Shown: positions 1,795 through 25,079 of the stretch, piece after piece
How the letters are laid out: the number at the start of each line of letters is the position of its first letter
How positions within the stretch are numbered: position 1 is the first letter of the stretch
Source of the DNA: Jiangella endophytica
Lineage (GTDB): Bacteria; Actinomycetota; Actinomycetes; Jiangellales; Jiangellaceae
Assembly (NCBI RefSeq): GCF_003427025.1
Contig: NZ_QVAI01000002.1
Location: 124,001 to 188,000, forward strand
Direction of reading: 5' to 3'
Length of the DNA: 64,000 nt
Notes under the pieces: model-generated
Seen by the model: only the letters and a program-made list of their open reading frames with translations
Told to the model about the DNA's origin: nothing
Databases searched by the model: none
Position numbers and translations under genes: made by a program

Positions 1795-3159
1795 TTACGG
1801 CCAGGCGTTCTCGATCGCGTCGACCGTCTCCTGCGTGCTGGCGCCGGTGATCCAGTTGACCATCCCGGTCCAGAACGCGACGGTCCCGACCTCGGCCGGC
1901 ATCAGGTCCGACGCGTCGAATCCGAAGGCCGCCTCGGGGTCCTGGATGATCTCCGCCGACAGCTGGTTGACGGGGCTGTCGTACGCGTCGACCGGCACCG
2001 TCTTGTTGGCCGACACGAAGTTGCCCTTGCTGGCCCGCTCTGCATGCCAGTGGTCGCTGGACAGGTAGGTCTGGAAGGCCTGGACCTCGGGACGCTCGGT
2101 GAACGCTGCGGTGAACTCGCCGCCGCCCAGCACCGGGTTGCCCTGCGCGGGGTCGATCCCAGGCAGGTAGAAGGCGTACACGTCGCCATCCTCAGCAACC
2201 TCGACGCCGTCGCCCCAGTTCGCCTGGTAGAACGACGCTTGGCGATGCATCCAGCACTGGCCCTGCAGGATCGGCAGGCCGCCGTCCTCGAACCGCGTGG
2301 TGGCAATGCTGGAGACGTCACCCAGGCCGCCATTGACGTACTGGTCGTTCTTGAGGATCTCGCCCACGGTGTCGAACGCCTCGACCACCTGAGGGTCGTT
2401 GAACGGGATCTCGTGCTCGTACCACTGCCGGTAGACGTCGATGCCGGCGGTGCGGAGCATGACCTCCTCGACCCAGTCGGTGCCCGGCCAGCCGGTGGCG
2501 TCGCCGGAGCCGAAGCCGGCACACCACGGCATGCCCCCGTCGGCGACGATCTGATCGGACAGTGCGATCAGGTCGTCCCAGGTCTCGGGGATCTCGTAGC
2601 CGGCCTCCTCGAAGGCCGACGGCGAGTACCAGACGAACGACTTCACGTTCGCGCCGAACGGCGTGCCGTAGTACGTGCCGTCGACGGTGCCGTAATCGAT
2701 CCACGCCGCGTCGAACGACGCCTCGACGTTCGCCCGGGCGTCGTCCGGCACCGGGATGACGGCGTCGTAGTCGCGGACCAGCGTGGCCAGCAGACCCGGC
2801 TGCGGAATGATCGCCAGATCGGGCGGCGAACCACCCTGGATGCGCACCGGCAGCTGAGCCTCGAACTCGTCCGAGCCCTCGTAGACGACCGTCATGCCCG
2901 TGCACTCTTCGAACGTGTCGAAGGACGCCTCGAGGGGCGCGTCCTCCGGCGCGACGATGGTGCTGTAGACGCTCACCTGAGTGCCCTCGAGGTCGCCGTA
3001 GTCCTCCGCGAAGGCACAGTCGGCGTCGCCTCCGCCAGTGTCGCCGCCGCCCGCGGTGTCGTCGTCGCCGTCGTCGCCGCCGCACGCGGCCAGGACGAGC
3101 GACACGCTTGCAGCCAGGCCGACAGCCGCCCAACCCTTGCGGGCGCTGCTCATCGCCAT
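1795..3159 (-). CDS. Extracellular sugar-binding lipoprotein of the ABC importer
   Basis: Solute-binding protein (454 residues) that would capture the sugar outside the membrane and deliver it to the two permeases. The N-terminus is a lipoprotein signal: Arg/Lys near residues 7-8, a hydrophobic stretch, then the lipobox LAAC with the acylated Cys at residue 26. A Gly/Asp-rich linker follows. The body is a SBP_bac_1-type fold (ProDom-like periplasmic binding protein family 1) of usual length. A GGGAGG-type ribosome site precedes the ATG at suitable distance. It is first in the operon and has a palindromic LacI-family operator about 65 bases upstream. No LacI gene is in the window. Confidence 0.92.
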   Translation of the reverse strand: MAMSSARKGWAAVGLAASVSLVLAACGGDDGDDDTAGGGDTGGGDADCAFAEDYGDLEGTQVSVYSTIVAPEDAPLEASFDTFEECTGMTVVYEGSDEFEAQLPVRIQGGSPPDLAIIPQPGLLATLVRDYDAVIPVPDDARANVEASFDAAWIDYGTVDGTYYGTPFGANVKSFVWYSPSAFEEAGYEIPETWDDLIALSDQIVADGGMPWCAGFGSGDATGWPGTDWVEEVMLRTAGIDVYRQWYEHEIPFNDPQVVEAFDTVGEILKNDQYVNGGLGDVSSIATTRFEDGGLPILQGQCWMHRQASFYQANWGDGVEVAEDGDVYAFYLPGIDPAQGNPVLGGGEFTAAFTERPEVQAFQTYLSSDHWHAERASKGNFVSANKTVPVDAYDSPVNQLSAEIIQDPEAAFGFDASDLMPAEVGTVAFWTGMVNWITGASTQETVDAIENAWP

Positions 3160-3223
3160 GTGTCCGTCTCCCTCCCAGCAGGGATCGGTCCGAGCTCCTG
3201 CCGCTCGAATCCCAGTGCATGAA

Positions 3224-3237
3224 CGAAAACGTTTACG
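3224..3237. promoter_or_regulatory. LacI/GalR-family operator upstream of the sugar importer
   Basis: CGAAAACGTTTACG is a near-perfect palindrome centred on the CG typical of LacI/GalR operators (AAACGTTT core). It is markedly AT-rich against the local sequence and sits 65 bases before the binding-protein start. A second, looser inverted repeat, CGTAA-N3-TTACG, lies at 3272-3284. The family assignment follows from the core motif; the cognate regulator is not in view. Confidence 0.7.
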
Positions 3238-3328
3238 CTCGAAAAATGCAAGAGCCCATCGGCAACTTCGCCGTAACGATTACGTCACGCCGCACGGGCG
3301 CATGTGAGGTGTCACACGTCGGTGAGCG

Positions 3329-5008
3329 TCAGGCGTGCCGCCGCGCCGCGACCACCCGGAACCGCGAGGCCACGAACGCGGCATCGGTGAGACAGGCGTT
3401 CGCGGCCGGGTTGGCGCCGGTGCCGTGGAAGTCGGAGAACGCGGCCGACTGGTTGACGAAGACGCCGCCGGTCAGGTTGATCGACAACGGCACGCCGGCG
3501 TCGACGGCGGCCAGCTCGGCGGCATCCAGCACGGCCGGGTCGGTGGAGTAGACCGACGCCGTCATGCCACCGTGCTCGCGGACCGACGCGGCGAAGCGGT
3601 CCAGCGCCTGCTCCGTGGAGTCGGCGGCGATGAGGAACGAGACCGGGCCGAAGCACTCGGCGGAGTAGCGGTCCTCGTCGGCGATGTCGACGGCCACGAC
3701 GGCGGGCGTGCGGACGGTGGCGCCCGGCCAGGCCGGGTGCGTGATCGTGCGCGCGGCGAGGACGGCGCCGTCGTCGCCGGCCGTCGCGTCGACGCGGTCG
3801 CGGACGCCGTCGTTGACCACGGCGCCGAGGATCTCGACGGCGCGGGCGTCGTCGCCGAGCAGTTTGTCGATGGCGCCCGCGAGCGCCGCGCCGAACTCGT
3901 CGAACGTCACCTTGCCCTGGTCGGTGAGGATGCCGTCGCGCGGGACGAACACGTTCTGCGGCGCGGTGCACATCTGCCCGGTGTAGAGGCTCAGCGAGAA
4001 CGCGAGGTTGTTCACCAGGCCGCGCAGGTCGTCGGTGGAGTCGACGACGACGGTGTTCAGCCCGGCCTTCTCGGTGAACACGACGGCCTGGCGGGCGTTC
4101 TGCTCGAGCCAGGAGCCGAACGCCGTGGAGCCGGTGAAGTCGACGATGCGGATCTCGGGCCGGACGGCGAGCACCGCGGCCAGCCGGTCGGCCGGGTCCT
4201 CGGCCGCGAGCGTGACGAGGTCGGGATCGAAGCCGTACTCACCGAGCACCTCGCGGATCGTCTGCACGGTGATGGCCAGCGGCAGGACGGCGTTGGGATG
4301 CGGCTTGACGACGACGGCGTTGCCGGTGGCCAGCGATGCGAACAGGCCGGGCCAGGAGTTCCAGGTCGGGAACGTGTTGCAGCCGATGACCAGGGCGACG
4401 CCGCGGGGCACCAGGTGGAACGTCTTCGTCATGCGCAGCGGCTCGCCCTTGGCGGGCTTCTCCCACAGCACGTCGCCGGGGATGCGGGCCTGCTCGGCGT
4501 GCGCGTACGCGACCGCCTCGAGCGCGCGGTCCAGCGCGTGCGCGCCGCCGGCCTGGAATGCCATGACGAACGCCTGGCCGGAGGTGTGCATGACCGACTG
4601 GGCCACCTCGAAGATGCGTCCGTGCAGCCGCGACAGCACCTCGAGGCACACCGCGGCTCGGCCGTCGGCGCCGGCGTCGCGCCAGGCGGGGACGGCCGCC
4701 TGAGCCGCGGCCAGCAGCGTCGTGACGGCCTCGTCGGTGGCCGGGACCCGCGGGTAGCGGACCCGCAGTTCCGGCCCGAACGGGCTGGTCTCGGTGGCGA
4801 CGGTGCCCTCGGCGCCGGGGGTCCGGAGCGGGAAGTCGGTGCCGAGGTGCGCCTCGTGCGCGGCCTGCCCCTCGGCCGCTGCCGTCTCGCCATAGACTCG
4901 CGGGCTCGGCGACTCCGGGTAGGCGGAGAAGAACGTCCGCTCACCGATGGCGGTCTCGGCCCGGCCGAGGAGGTCGCGGTGCCGATCGATCAGACTTCCC
5001 AGCGCCAT
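3329..5008 (-). CDS. paaN: Phenylacetic acid degradation protein PaaN (aldehyde dehydrogenase type)
   Basis: Aldehyde dehydrogenase-superfamily enzyme (559 residues) of the aerobic phenylacetyl-CoA pathway, assigned to oxidation of the ring-opened CoA-semialdehyde. It matches the shorter PaaN form: the ALDH part is present but there is no C-terminal MaoC hydratase domain as in the E. coli PaaZ fusion. The catalytic Cys is in YTGQMCTAPQN (about residue 347) and the glycine-rich NAD site (FTGSTAFGSWL) lies before it. A second, separate hydratase must exist for ring opening; none is in the window. The gene is divergent from the hydroxyacyl-CoA dehydrogenase gene across a 96-base promoter region that holds a 9-base inverted repeat. 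Confidence 0.9.
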   Translation of the reverse strand: MALGSLIDRHRDLLGRAETAIGERTFFSAYPESPSPRVYGETAAAEGQAAHEAHLGTDFPLRTPGAEGTVATETSPFGPELRVRYPRVPATDEAVTTLLAAAQAAVPAWRDAGADGRAAVCLEVLSRLHGRIFEVAQSVMHTSGQAFVMAFQAGGAHALDRALEAVAYAHAEQARIPGDVLWEKPAKGEPLRMTKTFHLVPRGVALVIGCNTFPTWNSWPGLFASLATGNAVVVKPHPNAVLPLAITVQTIREVLGEYGFDPDLVTLAAEDPADRLAAVLAVRPEIRIVDFTGSTAFGSWLEQNARQAVVFTEKAGLNTVVVDSTDDLRGLVNNLAFSLSLYTGQMCTAPQNVFVPRDGILTDQGKVTFDEFGAALAGAIDKLLGDDARAVEILGAVVNDGVRDRVDATAGDDGAVLAARTITHPAWPGATVRTPAVVAVDIADEDRYSAECFGPVSFLIAADSTEQALDRFAASVREHGGMTASVYSTDPAVLDAAELAAVDAGVPLSINLTGGVFVNQSAAFSDFHGTGANPAANACLTDAAFVASRFRVVAARRHA

Positions 5009-5026
5009 CGCGGGACCTCCAGAGCA

Positions 5027-5065
5027 TGTGACAGACTAACGCACAGATGGCTCTACTCTGTCACA
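5027..5065. promoter_or_regulatory. Inverted repeat in the paaN/paaH divergent promoter region
   Basis: TGTGACAGA at 5027-5035 is repeated in perfect inversion as TCTGTCACA at 5057-5065, with 21 bases between. It lies in the only gap shared by the divergent paa genes, so it is a good candidate binding site for the phenylacetate regulator. Arm and spacer lengths resemble a dimeric repressor site, but no paaR gene is in view and the motif differs from PaaR sites I know. Confidence 0.55.
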
Positions 5066-5104
5066 ACGACCCGCCGCCCGTCCATGAGGGGAGACACTCG
5101 GAAC

Positions 5105-7018
5105 ATGGACGCGATCGCTCGTTCAGTGCCCGTCGGCGTCGTCGGCGCCGGGACCATGGGCGCGGGCATCGCCCAGGTGGCGGCGGCGGCCGGGCACGAA
5201 GTGCGGCTGTACGACGCGGCCGCCGGCGCCGCCGAGACCGCGGTCGAGACGATCTTCCAGCGGCTGGCGCGCGCGGTCGACAAGGGCCGGTTGCTCGCCG
5301 AGGAGGCCGAGGACGCCGTGAGCCGGCTGCACGCCGTCGCGACGCTCGAGGACCTCGCCGGCTGCGGCCTGGTGATCGAGGCCGTCGTCGAGGATCTGGG
5401 GGTCAAGCGGGCGCTGTTCACCGGGCTCGAGGCGGTCTGCGGTCCCGACGCGGTGCTGGCCACCAACACGTCGTCGCTGTCGGTCGACGCGGTCGCCGCC
5501 GAGCTCGCCCACCCGGCCCGGTTCGCGGGCCTGCACTTCTTCAACCCGGCGCCGTTGCTCCCGCTGGTCGAGGTGGTCAGCGGCGAGCACACGGATGCCG
5601 CGGTGGCGGACCTGCTGGTGGCGACGGCGCAGGCCTGGGGCAAGACCCCGGTGCGGGCGGCGTCGACGCCCGGCTTCATCGTCAACCGGGTGGCCCGCCC
5701 GTTCTACGGAGAGGCGTTCCGGCTGCTCGAGTCCGGCCGGGTCGACGCCGCGACGATCGACGCGCTGCTGCGCGAGTCCGGCGGCTTCCGGATGGGCCCG
5801 TTCGAGCTGGCCGACCTCATCGGCCACGACGTCAACCTCGCGGTGAGCCGCTCGGTGTGGGAGGCGTTCGGTCGCGACCCTCGGTTCACGCCGTCGGTGC
5901 TGCAGGAACGGCTGGTCGCCGACGGCCGGCTGGGCCGCAAGACCGGCGGCGGCGTCTACGCCGCGGACACGCCGCGCCCGGAGCCGGCGACGGCCGACCC
6001 GGTCCCCGCCGCACCGGCGGCGTGGGCCGGCGCAGGCGGGGTGGACCCGTCCGCACCGGGCTGGAGCGTGGGCACCGGCGAGGTCGAACTGCGGCCCACC
6101 GACGGGCGCACGGCCGCCCAGCACACCGGCGGCGGGCCGCGCACCGTCGTCCTGGTCGACCTCGCGCTGGACACGTCGCCGGCACGCGTCGGCATCGCCG
6201 CACCCGAGCACGCGCCGAAGGAGCATCTCGAGGCCGCGATCGGATTCCTGCAGGGCCACGGCTACGCGGTGACGGTGCTGCCGGACGTCCCCGGCCTGGT
6301 GGTGGCCCGGACGGTCGCGACACTCGCCGCCGCGGCCGCCGATGCCGTCGACTCCGGCGTCGCGACCGCCGAGGACGTCGACACCGCGATGCGCCTGGGC
6401 ACGAACTATCCGCGCGGCCCGTACGAGTGGGGCTCCGCCCTCGGCTGGGACTGGGTGACCGGCGTGCTGGACGCGCTGGCCGCCGCCGACGACCCGGGCC
6501 GCTACCGGGTCTCGCCGCGGCTGCGCGACCGCGCCACGGCCGGCGACGGCTGGCGCGACGACGCGGAGGTCGCCGAGCGCGACGACCTGGCCCGCAATGC
6601 CGCCGAGGCGATGTGGTCGGCCGACGCCGCCTCGCGGGCCCTGGGTATGGCGGTCGAGCAGGTCTCGTCCGGCACGGCCGTGGTGAGCATGCTGGTCCGT
6701 CCCGACATGATCAACGGCCACGGCGTGTGCCACGGCGGCCTGGTGTTCGCGCTGGCCGACAGCGCGTTCGCCGTCGCTTGCAACACCCACAACCGGCGCA
6801 CGGTCGCGCAGGGTGCGGACGTCACGTTCGTCGCGCCCGCCCACGAGGGCGACCGGCTGCTCGCCGTCGCCGACGAACGGCACCGTGGCGCGCGCAGCGG
6901 CATCTGCGACGTCACCGTGTACCGCGAGGATCCCGCGGGCCTCGAGACGATCGCCCTGTTCCGCGGCCGGTCGCGGGAGATCCCCGGCACGCTGGTGCCC
7001 GACGAGGAGGAGACATGA
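5105..7018 (+). CDS. paaH: Fused 3-hydroxyacyl-CoA dehydrogenase (PaaH) and PaaI-type hotdog thioesterase
   Basis: A 637-residue protein carrying two enzymes of phenylacetate breakdown. Residues 1 to about 480 are a 3-hydroxyacyl-CoA dehydrogenase: NAD site [12 protein letters not shown] near residue 12, [14 protein letters not shown] in the middle, and the second C-terminal domain with YPRGPYEWG. From about residue 497 a complete PaaI thioesterase follows ([16 protein letters not shown]; then [20 protein letters not shown], the hotdog active-site stretch). PaaH would oxidise 3-hydroxyadipyl-CoA; PaaI would clear dead-end CoA thioesters and so free CoA. They are normally separate genes. No stop or usable internal start was seen at the junction. 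The ATG at 5105 was chosen because the NAD fold begins there. The stop overlaps the thiolase start (ATGA). Confidence 0.9.
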
Positions 7019-23082: not shown

Positions 23083-23112
23083 TTGACATTTCGTCGCGCA
23101 AGTTGCAATGAT
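23083..23112 (+). promoter_or_regulatory. Promoter of small peptide gene A
   Basis: TTGACA at 23083-23088 is a consensus -35; with a 17- or 18-base spacer it is followed by CAATGA/AATGAT at 23106-23112 as -10. The leader to the GTG at 23176 is about 60 bases and contains GTCCAA (23147-23152), a half-site also seen in the regulator/peptide B gap. Confidence 0.6.
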
Positions 23113-23175
23113 TCACGGCACTCTTCCGAAAGGGCGCGTTTGTCGCGTCCAAGCCGCCGGAAGGAGGTGAGAGAC

Positions 23176-23340
23176 GTGATCCGAAGGATTGCCCTCGCGA
23201 CGCTGGTCGCCGTGGCGGGCCTCACCGGGACCGCGGTCGTCGCGGTCGGCGGCCTCGGCGGCGCCCCCGCAGAAGTGGCCCCCTGGAACGATGACGGCGT
23301 GCGCAACACGCCAGACGGCGGCTCCGACTTCTGTTGCTGA
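23176..23340 (+). CDS. Small secreted peptide A ending in Asp-Phe-Cys-Cys
   Basis: A 54-residue precursor with no family I recognise. It has two Arg at residues 3-4, a hydrophobic core (IALATLVAVAGLTGTAVVAV), then a short polar tail (PWNDDGVRNTPDGGSDFCC). This looks like a Sec signal plus a mature peptide of 20 to 30 residues. Evidence that it is real: a textbook AAGGAGGTGA seven to eight bases before the GTG, a consensus -35, and a perfect 17-base-stem terminator 12 bases after the stop. Its last four residues are identical to those of peptide B beyond the XRE-TPR regulator. The regulator gene is convergent with it. Likely role: pheromone precursor for that regulator; this is inference. Confidence 0.75.
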   Translation: MIRRIALATLVAVAGLTGTAVVAVGGLGGAPAEVAPWNDDGVRNTPDGGSDFCC

Positions 23341-23352
23341 TCGGCTCGGACG

Positions 23353-23391
23353 CACCGATGCCCCAGCGCTTCCGGCGCTGGGGCATCGGTG
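23353..23391. terminator. Perfect hairpin between peptide A and the convergent regulator gene
   Basis: CACCGATGCCCCAGCGC (23353-23369) and its exact inverse (23375-23391) enclose a 5-base loop TTCCG. The 17-base perfect stem lies 12 bases after the stop of peptide A and 22 bases before the end of the regulator gene, so it probably ends both transcripts. Confidence 0.9.
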
Positions 23392-23413
23392 TGTTGCGAG
23401 GTGCCTGTGACCG

Positions 23414-24820
23414 TCAGGCCGAGGCCGACGAGAGACCGAGCGGGCCGTCGAGACCCCCGGTGACGGCTTCGTCGGCGAGACCGGCCGGGATGTGCGGACC
23501 CACGCGGACCGACCGCAGCGCGTTGTCGTAGGCATCGAGCGCCGCGTCGGTGCGACCGAGGTCGCGGTAGAGGTCGGCCAGCTCACGCCAGGCCAGCGCC
23601 GCCACGCGCGACGCCCCCATGGACTCGAGCGCCGAAGCCGCCAGTGCCGCCTCGCGGATGCTCTGCTCGACGTCGCCCTGGGCACGCAGCACCCGTGCCA
23701 GGGTGAGCCGCGCGAGCGCCCCGCCCATCCGCGGCTGGTCGCCGAGCTCGCGCAGCGCGAGGTCGGCCGCGTCGCGAGCGTCGTCCAGCCGGCCGAGGCG
23801 CAGCAGGGCTTCGGCGCGCTTGGTGCCGAAGCTGGCGATGTCGGTGGCGCTGCCATGCTGGCGGATGGCCGCCTCGACGCCGTCGAGGATGGTCAGCGCC
23901 TCCTGCGCCCGAGGCTCGCTGCCCTGGAGCAGCAGCCAGGCGTGTGCCAGCCGCAGCCGGGCGAGGTTGCGGAGGTCGTCGCCCTCGCCGAACATCGCCA
24001 GCGCGCGGTCGACCAGGTTCAGCGCCAGCGCCAGCTCGCCGCGGGACTCCGCGATGAGCGAGGCGTTCCAGTACGCCGCGCCGCGAGTGTGCGGCGTGCC
24101 GATGCGGTCGGCGGCGGCCACCAGCTCGGCGGCGAGCGCCTTGGAGCGCACGAGGTCGCCGCGGCCGGAGTAGGCGCCGAGGACCGTGCACCCGAGGCGG
24201 ATGTACTCGTCGGTGCTCTCGAGCCCGAGGTCGAAGGCCGCGCGGCGGGCCTCCTCGCCGACCTGGATGGCCATGTCGTAGTCGCCGGCGCGGTCGTAGC
24301 ACCGGGTCAGCGCGATGGCGACGTCGAGCCAGGACTGCACCGCGGGCGTCTGCCGCGCTTCGTCGGCCAGCTCGCTGAGGATCTCGATGGCGCCCTCGAG
24401 GTCGCCGGTGCGCTCGCGGGCCAGTGCCCGGCCCAGACGGGCGGCGCGGCTCTGCTCGTCGTTCAGACCCGGATCGCCGACCAGCGTGGTGAACTGCTCG
24501 TAGGCTTCCTCGGGCCGGCCCTCGCGCAGCGCCATCTCGGCGCGGCCCAGGGCCAGGCGGGCCTTGGTGCGGACGGACGCGTCGACGCCGTCGCGCAGGT
24601 ACTCGACGTCGATGCGCAGCCTCTCGGCGATGTGCGCGAGCGCGGACGACGCCGGCTGGCGGCGGCCGCTCTCGACGAGCGAGACGTAACTGGGGGACAG
24701 CATGCCCTCTGCGATCTCTGCCTGGGAGAGACCGAGCTCCAACCGGCGGGATCGGATACGCTGCCCGACGGGCGTCGGAAGCGGCGCCTCGTCCACTGTT
24801 GCTGGCTGGTCTTCTGTCAT
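23414..24820 (-). CDS. XRE-family regulator with TPR domain (RRNPP-like architecture)
   Basis: Cytoplasmic regulator of 468 residues. A helix-turn-helix of the Cro/CI type spans about 18-75 (LSQAEIAEGMLSPSYVSLVESG is split across recognition helix). The rest, about 85-450, is a continuous array of helical pairs of TPR character (for example ALARERTGDLEGAIEILSEL; EALLRLGRLDDARDAADLAL). This is the architecture of peptide-sensing regulators PlcR, PrgX, Rgg and NprR, whose TPR domains bind short exported-and-reimported peptides. Here two tiny secreted-peptide genes flank it. A TTGGAC/TGTAGT promoter with an 18-base spacer places the RNA start about 5 bases before the ATG, so the mRNA may be nearly leaderless. 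Many actinomycete XRE-TPR proteins have no known ligand. Confidence 0.88.
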   Translation of the reverse strand: MTEDQPATVDEAPLPTPVGQRIRSRRLELGLSQAEIAEGMLSPSYVSLVESGRRQPASSALAHIAERLRIDVEYLRDGVDASVRTKARLALGRAEMALREGRPEEAYEQFTTLVGDPGLNDEQSRAARLGRALARERTGDLEGAIEILSELADEARQTPAVQSWLDVAIALTRCYDRAGDYDMAIQVGEEARRAAFDLGLESTDEYIRLGCTVLGAYSGRGDLVRSKALAAELVAAADRIGTPHTRGAAYWNASLIAESRGELALALNLVDRALAMFGEGDDLRNLARLRLAHAWLLLQGSEPRAQEALTILDGVEAAIRQHGSATDIASFGTKRAEALLRLGRLDDARDAADLALRELGDQPRMGGALARLTLARVLRAQGDVEQSIREAALAASALESMGASRVAALAWRELADLYRDLGRTDAALDAYDNALRSVRVGPHIPAGLADEAVTGGLDGPLGLSSASA

Positions 24821-24861
24821 GACAGTATTGGACTACAGTCAGTCACATTTTGCCAGTCCAA
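24814..24861. promoter_or_regulatory. Regulator/peptide B divergent control region with inverted repeats
   Basis: TTGGACT (24828-24834) and AGTCCAA (24855-24861) are an exact inverted repeat 20 bases apart. The AGTCCAA arm is the -35 of the regulator promoter on the minus strand (TTGGAC, 18 bases, TGTAGT at 24832-24837). A perfect 12-base palindrome CTGTCATGACAG (24814-24825) covers the regulator start codon. The gap is only 67 bases and unusually AT-rich. These are strong candidates for the operator of the XRE-TPR protein, giving autoregulation and control of peptide B. Confidence 0.65.
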
Positions 24862-24887
24862 ATGCCGACTTTAGGAGTTCGATCTAG

Positions 24888-25010
24888 ATGGGGCGTGCCA
24901 AGCGAGTTGTGATCGCGGTTGTCGCATCGTTCGCACTCACGTTCACGGTGAGCGCACCTGCGGTTGCCGCCTTCTCGCCGACCGCGAGCCCTGGAGACTT
25001 CTGCTGCTGA
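24888..25010 (+). CDS. Small secreted peptide B ending in Asp-Phe-Cys-Cys
   Basis: A 40-residue precursor, too short for usual gene callers. Lys5-Arg6, a hydrophobic core (VVIAVVASFALTFTV) and a signal-peptidase-like site (SAPAVAA, residues 22-28) leave a mature peptide of about 12 residues, FSPTASPGDFCC. AGGAG lies 10 bases before the ATG. The gene is divergent from the XRE-TPR regulator with 67 bases between and is followed by a perfect 15-base-stem terminator. Peptide A beyond the other end of the regulator ends in the same DFCC, with the same codons except one wobble base. No modifying enzyme is nearby, so a lanthipeptide or lasso peptide is less likely. Function inferred as signal peptide for the regulator. 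Confidence 0.72.
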   Translation: MGRAKRVVIAVVASFALTFTVSAPAVAAFSPTASPGDFCC

Positions 25011-25027: not shown

Positions 25028-25079
25028 GCACGGACGGCGTCCGGCGTCTCGCCCCCCGAACGCAGGACGCCGTCCGTGC
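25028..25079. terminator. Perfect hairpin after peptide B
   Basis: GCACGGACGGCGTCC (25028-25042) and GGACGCCGTCCGTGC (25065-25079) are a perfect 15-base inverted repeat. It lies 17 bases after peptide B and 41 bases before the end of the convergent aminotransferase gene, so it can act in both directions. Confidence 0.9.

Follow-up and report, generated by a model that had tools for sequence, protein, structure and literature searches.

The locus analysed here probably encodes an actinomycete peptide-pheromone circuit of RRNPP type with a two-cysteine pheromone, whose secretion, binding and output are predicted steps. The proposal is built on the observed anatomy of the genes, the recurrence of the pair across families, the conservation of a Cys-Cys (CC) end and the association of tail with receptor; the receptor fold comes from a model. 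In the passages of PMC10075063 that bear on this, signalling in Actinomycetota is described as typically relying on enzyme-made small molecules, with peptides as the Bacillota way. Among the matches listed in a search of open-licence PMC papers, none describes an actinomycete pair of this kind. If the proposal is true, it opens peptide communication in the main antibiotic-producing phylum, and the two-cysteine tail would be a concrete, synthesizable candidate inducer.

The locus and its counterparts in the family

The window is a stretch of 64,000 nucleotides (contig positions 124001-188000) from a genome of 7.85 Mb, and the regulator's best named matches are Jiangella species. The first-pass annotation of the window had described frames of 54 and 40 codons, both ending in DFCC and both preceded by Shine-Dalgarno sites, on either side of a 468-residue HTH-TPR regulator. 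Translation confirms the frames, their ends and the regulator, and Shine-Dalgarno-like sites are recognisable by eye before both small frames (Table 1). Two perfect stems had been read as terminators; both are present at the lengths given, with folding z-scores of -8.2 (17 bp) and -5.0 (15 bp), and are terminator-like, yet neither is followed by a T-run. The start codons of the regulator and the main propeptide are 67 bases apart, and 73 bases separate the convergent frames. Two copies of GAYTTYTGYTGYTGA, the DNA pattern encoding DFCC-TGA, are present in the genome, both at this locus, and the reversed control pattern is absent. Alignment and inspection by eye found no motif common to the upstream regions of the two propeptides.

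Table 1 Features of the locus (positions in the window)
Feature	Position	Strand	Basis and remarks
Main propeptide gene, 40 aa, MGRAKRVVIAVVASFALTFTVSAPAVAAFSPTASPGDFCC	24888..25010	+	Translation; ATG start; ends GDFCC; divergent from regulator
Second propeptide gene, 54 aa	23176..23340	+	Translation; GTG start; ends GGSDFCC; lineage-specific; convergent with regulator, beyond its 3' end
HTH-TPR regulator, proposed intracellular receptor, 468 aa	23414..24820	-	Translation, Pfam, model, fold matches
HTH_3 DNA-binding domain, residues 17-77	24590..24772	-	Pfam HTH_3 2.5e-9, residues 22-75; helices in model
About 9 TPR-like helix pairs, residues 81-437, proposed peptide groove	23510..24580	-	Pfam TPR, model, fold matches
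N252 codon, helix A of fifth repeat; column most tied to CC tail	24065..24067	-	Column test
Shine-Dalgarno-like AGGAG, main propeptide	24873..24877	+	By eye; GGAG or GGGG in 20 aligned loci
Shine-Dalgarno-like GGAGGTG, second propeptide	23163..23169	+	By eye
Promoter-like TTGACA-17-CAATGA ahead of second propeptide	23083..23111	+	By eye; TTGACA kept in the 4 genomes having second propeptide
17-bp perfect stem, terminator-like, without T-run; between the two convergent genes	23353..23391	.	Arms 23353-23369 and 23375-23391, loop 5
15-bp perfect stem, terminator-like, without T-run; after main propeptide	25028..25079	.	Arms 25028-25042 and 25065-25079, loop 22
Conserved intergenic block, candidate operator and peptide promoter (putative function)	24815..24846	.	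GTCATGAC palindrome and TATTG.AC.ACA; 20-locus alignment

Of the 22 family genomes, 21 contain a single match to the regulator at E<=1e-60, its own genome among them. The divergent peptide is CC-ended at 20 of these 21 loci; at the remaining one (L023) the peptide's place is cut off, the contig stopping 199 bases upstream of the regulator match. Tail ends at the 20 loci include DFCC, EFCC, QFCC, MFCC, SYCC, MYCC and QYCC, as well as DMCC, GMCC, VMCC, TMCC and NTCC. The conserved unit is CC, usually after W, Y, F or M. The first-pass annotation had staked its reading on DFCC ends beside orthologous regulators; the CC is conserved there and the full DFCC is not. In the 13 peptides of equal length (12 from the genus, 1 from the family) both cysteines are invariant, two of the 13 genes using the synonymous codon TGT for one of them; residues 29-33 and 37 vary.

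The second propeptide occurs in 4 of the 22 family genomes, all of one genus. This leaves unsupported, as a general design, the earlier suggestion of two peptides acting as an agonist/antagonist pair, though tandem peptide copies do stand beside some other receptors. Between the regulator and the main propeptide, the block GTCATGACA.TATTG.AC.ACA is kept in 20 of 20 aligned loci apart from single bases. Its palindrome, noticed by eye, lies over the regulator start codon and is a candidate operator. No second operator-like site was found in the genome, where the intergenic 19-mer occurs once at up to 3 mismatches.

The CC peptides are 30-58 aa long (75 distinct sequences) and have leaders that look like Sec signal peptides, judged approximately by a basic start and a hydrophobic core, both scored by script, and by a placed A-x-A site. 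Of the 78 distinct CC peptides, 72 carry an [AV]xA site that would leave a tail of 5-32 residues; among background frames of similar length, 14 of 27 do. A looser A-x-A test is passed by 72 of 75 CC peptides and by 47 of 66 background frames; since much of the Ala-rich background passes it, this test says little alone. In 59 of the 78, position -3 holds W, Y, F or M. An A-x-A site precedes the tail of the main propeptide, and candidate tails include FSPTASPGDFCC, SPGDFCC and DFCC. Neither the two window peptides nor eight relatives matched a named peptide family in Pfam or NCBIfam above cut-off.

Recurrence of the pair across Actinomycetota

Regulators were gathered by their own sequence alone, with peptides ignored. 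The class search with the regulator matched 67 genomes at 1e-25 (393 genomes), a phylum search with a profile matched 23 of 396 at 1e-50, and profile searches of two other orders at 1e-60 matched 133 of 200 and 26 of 196; scoring in the class and order searches was confined to the top 4 or 8 first-look candidates of each genome. From the class search, 66 of 70 places outside the family were fetched (40 + 26), the other four being L155, L161, L176 and L177. The phylum search contributed 20 of its 23 non-own places and each order search 30 loci, the best-scoring ones in one order and 30 of the 35 listed in the other. The 150 distinct regulators are therefore no random sample, since these loci are a best-scoring or listed subset of the order searches. 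L176 and L177, which stand outside the 150, were scanned for CC frames alone.

A script then collected, around the fetched regulators, frames 28-110 codons long whose products have a basic N-terminus and a hydrophobic core. A CC-ended peptide accompanies 72 of the 150 regulators, 5 have CC near the end, 18 have a divergent peptide with another tail, 53 have none and 2 are truncated; five loci (L100, L104, L191, L198, L210) were set to none by hand, their frames lacking the tail or being distant. A search of actinomycetes for XRE-TPR genes adjoined by small frames had been recommended at the outset, and the outcome is that the pairing recurs across families, with CC ends. Counted by frames, 81 of 187 candidates beside the regulators are CC-ended, all belonging to the 72. 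Background frames passing the same filter gave 0 of 66 in 175 kb, made up of the window outside the locus, the flanks of eight related loci and three Streptomyces plasmid loci; the background was scanned on both strands and the regions near regulators on one. The CC peptide is divergent in 47 cases, past the regulator's 3' end in 29 and in both places in 4.

These counts bear on the concern that the small frames are coincidental or mis-called. Such frames arise easily in G+C-rich DNA, and signal-like features alone are common. Against this stand the absence of CC ends from the background, the DFCC-TGA pattern found just twice in the genome, the synonymous change within CC codons, and the CC end at every family locus but the one where it is cut off. 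Chance is scarcely credible as an explanation.

Peptides of family f26 mostly end in WCC, and the phylum set includes the CC tails APWPPCC and APWPHCC. Among the 18 regulators with other tails, 17 have tails that hold an aromatic residue and proline. Examples are GWGWPG, GWVYPG and WSYPD in family f17, and FPWPK, NWPHVP and NWPHH in the phylum set. Family f17 is probably Streptosporangiaceae, a weak assignment based on matching records from Nonomuraea and Streptosporangium. Divergent peptides from other classes of the phylum (L082-L089, L099) span no more than about 30 aa, and their [FYW]P tails come shortly after the hydrophobic stretch. In f26, similar CC propeptide copies stand in a row 3' of a single receptor at L144 (two), L145 (three) and L152 (three). 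At L079, L097, L194, L201 and L207 the CC is followed by 1-5 further residues. These members suggest either that what counts is aromatic-Cys-Cys and not a free carboxylate, or that the added residues are trimmed off.

The same five members would also suit a RiPP precursor whose C-terminal CC is enzymatically altered or cyclised, and invariant last residues with a variable remainder do recall some precursor peptides. The genes around the pair argue otherwise. When neighbouring frames at 61 loci were clustered, 13 of the 14 largest clusters consisted of f17 loci only, and the remaining one drew five loci from three families, in positions that differ. Thus no neighbour gene holds a constant place across families among these clusters, which would leave a remote enzyme, and the leader resembles a Sec signal peptide. 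We consider a RiPP highly improbable. As none of these clusters recurs at a constant place across families, the pair itself is the shared unit. Conserved neighbours were also considered as the output of the circuit and set aside, as the 14 largest clusters hold none beyond f17 save the five-locus cluster at differing places.

Some relatives lie on plasmids. Sixteen plasmid records match the regulator, 14 of them from Streptomyces, at an identity of at most 40%, and the three Streptomyces plasmid loci used in the background hold no CC-ended candidate frame. On Streptomyces plasmids L162 and L163, distant relatives of the regulator lie near secondary-metabolism-type genes. Viral contigs were rejected as a source of relatives: at the 7 loci found, matches are confined to the HTH. 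A separate unannotated human-faecal phage record, L166 (MT836207.1), encodes an HTH-TPR protein with 35% identity across 57% of the query.

Tail type and the receptor

A tree spanning 124 of the 150 regulators requires 14 changes of the CC label against a mean of 40.6 for shuffled labels, a comparison that demonstrates clustering alone. One clade (support 100), next to a CC receptor, unites seven f17 receptors whose tails lack Cys; six of these tails are of the Trp/Pro type. As read from this tree, tail type clusters among the receptors and switches along it. The natural switch from CC to Trp/Pro among close receptors would provide a route to learning how TPR receptors choose their peptides.

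Tail type is also associated with residues of the TPR domain. Among 359 TPR columns in the class set, the best marker of CC is N252, present in 66 of the 74 receptors whose peptide has CC at its end or close to it and in 7 of 54 others; T212 is second (64 of 74 and 11 of 54). The p-values of these associations are inflated by shared ancestry. Each residue precedes a nearly invariant Gly (G261 and G221, respectively) by nine residues, so that 212 and 252 hold the same helix-A place in repeats 4 and 5. Of nine class-set receptors with other tails, 8 have Gly or Ala at residue 252. Glu stands there in every one of the 17 peptide-less f17 receptors near CC receptors (L066-L068, L104, L105, L107, L112-L114, L116-L120, L123, L130, L131), whose peptide may have been lost or moved elsewhere. 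In a second f17 group of 18, chosen by score and genome rather than by tree, residue 252 is Gln in 12, and none of the 18 has a peptide.

The marker has exceptions. Asn is missing from 5 of the 70 class-set receptors with a CC end, one of which, L121, has Glu, as in the adjoining peptide-less clade; Gln takes its place in 3 of the 4 whose CC lies near the end; 7 peptide-less receptors carry Asn; and in the phylum set Asn at 252 is common regardless of tail. An asparagine of this kind has a precedent in the relevant passages of PMC3601965, where Asn225 of RapJ, beside Tyr224, hydrogen-bonds the peptide main chain and the N225A mutant abolishes the response. Anchoring of the peptide main chain by a Rap TPR asparagine adjoining Tyr (N225/N226) is described in parts of both PMC3601965 and PMC11343458. 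Trp251-Asn252 here is like the Tyr-Asn pair of Rap in sequence pattern.

The tail-receptor association also bears on whether the peptide could be an effector, that is a secreted redox-active, metal-binding or antimicrobial product whose promoter the regulator controls in response to another ligand. A divergent arrangement suits simple local control, and several peptide copies beside one regulator are compatible with it. Chemically, a Cys-Cys end is reactive and might bind metal or close into a vicinal disulfide, and CC might be conserved just as well for a function outside the cell. Yet Cys-less tails such as GWGWPG, FPWPK and NWPHH fill the same slot beside related regulators, so that cysteine chemistry is not the common function, and a TPR residue of the receptor is associated with the tail. 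An effector is unlikely on this evidence.

The 53 of 150 relatives that have no nearby frame, including the 17 f17 receptors near CC receptors and all 18 of the second f17 group, count against the pheromone proposal. They also count against a toxin-antitoxin-like pair, in which a toxic hydrophobic peptide would be repressed by an XRE-type regulator, as whole clades retain the regulator without a recognisable peptide. A small basic-hydrophobic peptide adjoining an XRE-type protein is what such a pair would look like, but the element shared across families is the very end of the peptide and not its membrane segment, and the long TPR domain is retained. A toxin-antitoxin function therefore seems very doubtful.

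Proposed circuit and its relation to known systems

We propose that a pheromone circuit would operate as follows. The 40-aa propeptide would be exported by Sec and cut by signal peptidase after A-x-A, releasing a short tail ending in aromatic-Cys-Cys that is perhaps trimmed further. The tail or a fragment of it would be re-imported by an oligopeptide permease; the genome holds 38 SBP_bac_5 matches, of the peptide-permease type. Inside the cell it would bind the concave TPR groove of the divergently encoded HTH-TPR regulator and alter the action of the HTH at the shared divergent promoter, so that peptide and receptor would be controlled together. The regulator probably acts on further genes elsewhere. 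The role of such a circuit would be quorum or self-sensing.

A more speculative extension, possible and on balance rather unlikely, is that these are phylum-wide redox-gated pheromones. The terminal Cys-Cys would form a vicinal disulfide outside the cell, be opened or metal-bound in the reducing cytoplasm, and have its state read by the receptor. If this were true, the circuit would report peptide level together with redox condition, and members with Trp/Pro tails would be redox-blind.

The proposed receptor was modelled with AlphaFold2 at a mean pLDDT of 89.6, and several Pfam TPR models score above cut-off. Its VIA-align matches are TPR superhelices: LGN (Z about 26), Rap rows (20-24), NprR (23.3 and 20.8), MalT (22.5) and PlcR (19.8, over residues 15-293 with the HTH included); Foldseek puts PlcR fifth. 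Engineered and unrelated TPR proteins also match the regulator in profile or fold. The modelled fold fits an RRNPP receptor without proving it, because LGN, an unrelated TPR protein, scores above Rap.

The RRNPP signature given in the pertinent part of PMC10075063 has five parts: a propeptide of 10-100 aa, its secretion by Sec (SignalP), a receptor of about 250-500 aa, TPRs in that receptor, and genes -60 to 400 bp apart. Here the propeptides have 40 and 54 aa, the receptor has 468 aa and TPRs by both Pfam and model, and the distances are 67 and 73 bases. By these computable parts, with the Sec step approximated, the pair is RRNPP-like and a variant by its phylum, its divergent/convergent order and its Cys-Cys tail. 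The core of the first-pass proposal, a secreted peptide read by an HTH-TPR receptor, thus gains support from cross-family recurrence, the tail-receptor association and the fold; its two-peptide design does not.

Among known systems, the NsdA family (NCBIfam NF053720) also consists of TPR-like regulators. The profile match to it is weak, and at 34.7 bits against a curated cut-off of 75 we rejected membership. ComR is a cytoplasmic HTH receptor that reads a short peptide, ComS; the ComR chains matched by profile are short HTH-only constructs, with the receptor domains outside that comparison. Rgg-SHP systems are alike in that cytoplasmic HTH receptors read short peptides, and unlike in that, in the same part of PMC10075063, SHP peptides are exported by PptAB and not by Sec.

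The TPR domains of NprR-NprX and Rap-Phr receptors align over about model residues 79-440, at an identity with the regulator of 9-13%. Rap is not known to have an HTH, and no Cys-Cys tails are known from Phr or NprX. HTH-less TPR paralogues also occur among the regulator's relatives. L175 has three in tandem (2815-6599, minus strand), whose profile match starts at position 77-81, that is after the HTH. A CC-ended frame lies between two of them (4139-4270, plus strand), a configuration that looks like a Rap-like version of the receptor. Another stands at L176 (2521-3760), in an f26 genome that also has two full receptors; no CC frame was found near it within the fetched stretch, and likewise none at L177.

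The closest natural likeness in sequence profile is to PlcR-PapR, the RRNPP pair of the Bacillus cereus group. PlcR is the best natural chain in the sequence-profile search (E 4e-16, over the HTH and first TPRs), after engineered TPR proteins, and its fold match covers the HTH. In both systems an HTH is followed by TPR repeats and a small propeptide gene is adjacent. The putative receptor described here differs from PlcR in having about nine TPR pairs instead of five, a divergent/convergent gene order and a Cys-Cys tail, and it belongs to Actinomycetota, not Bacillota.
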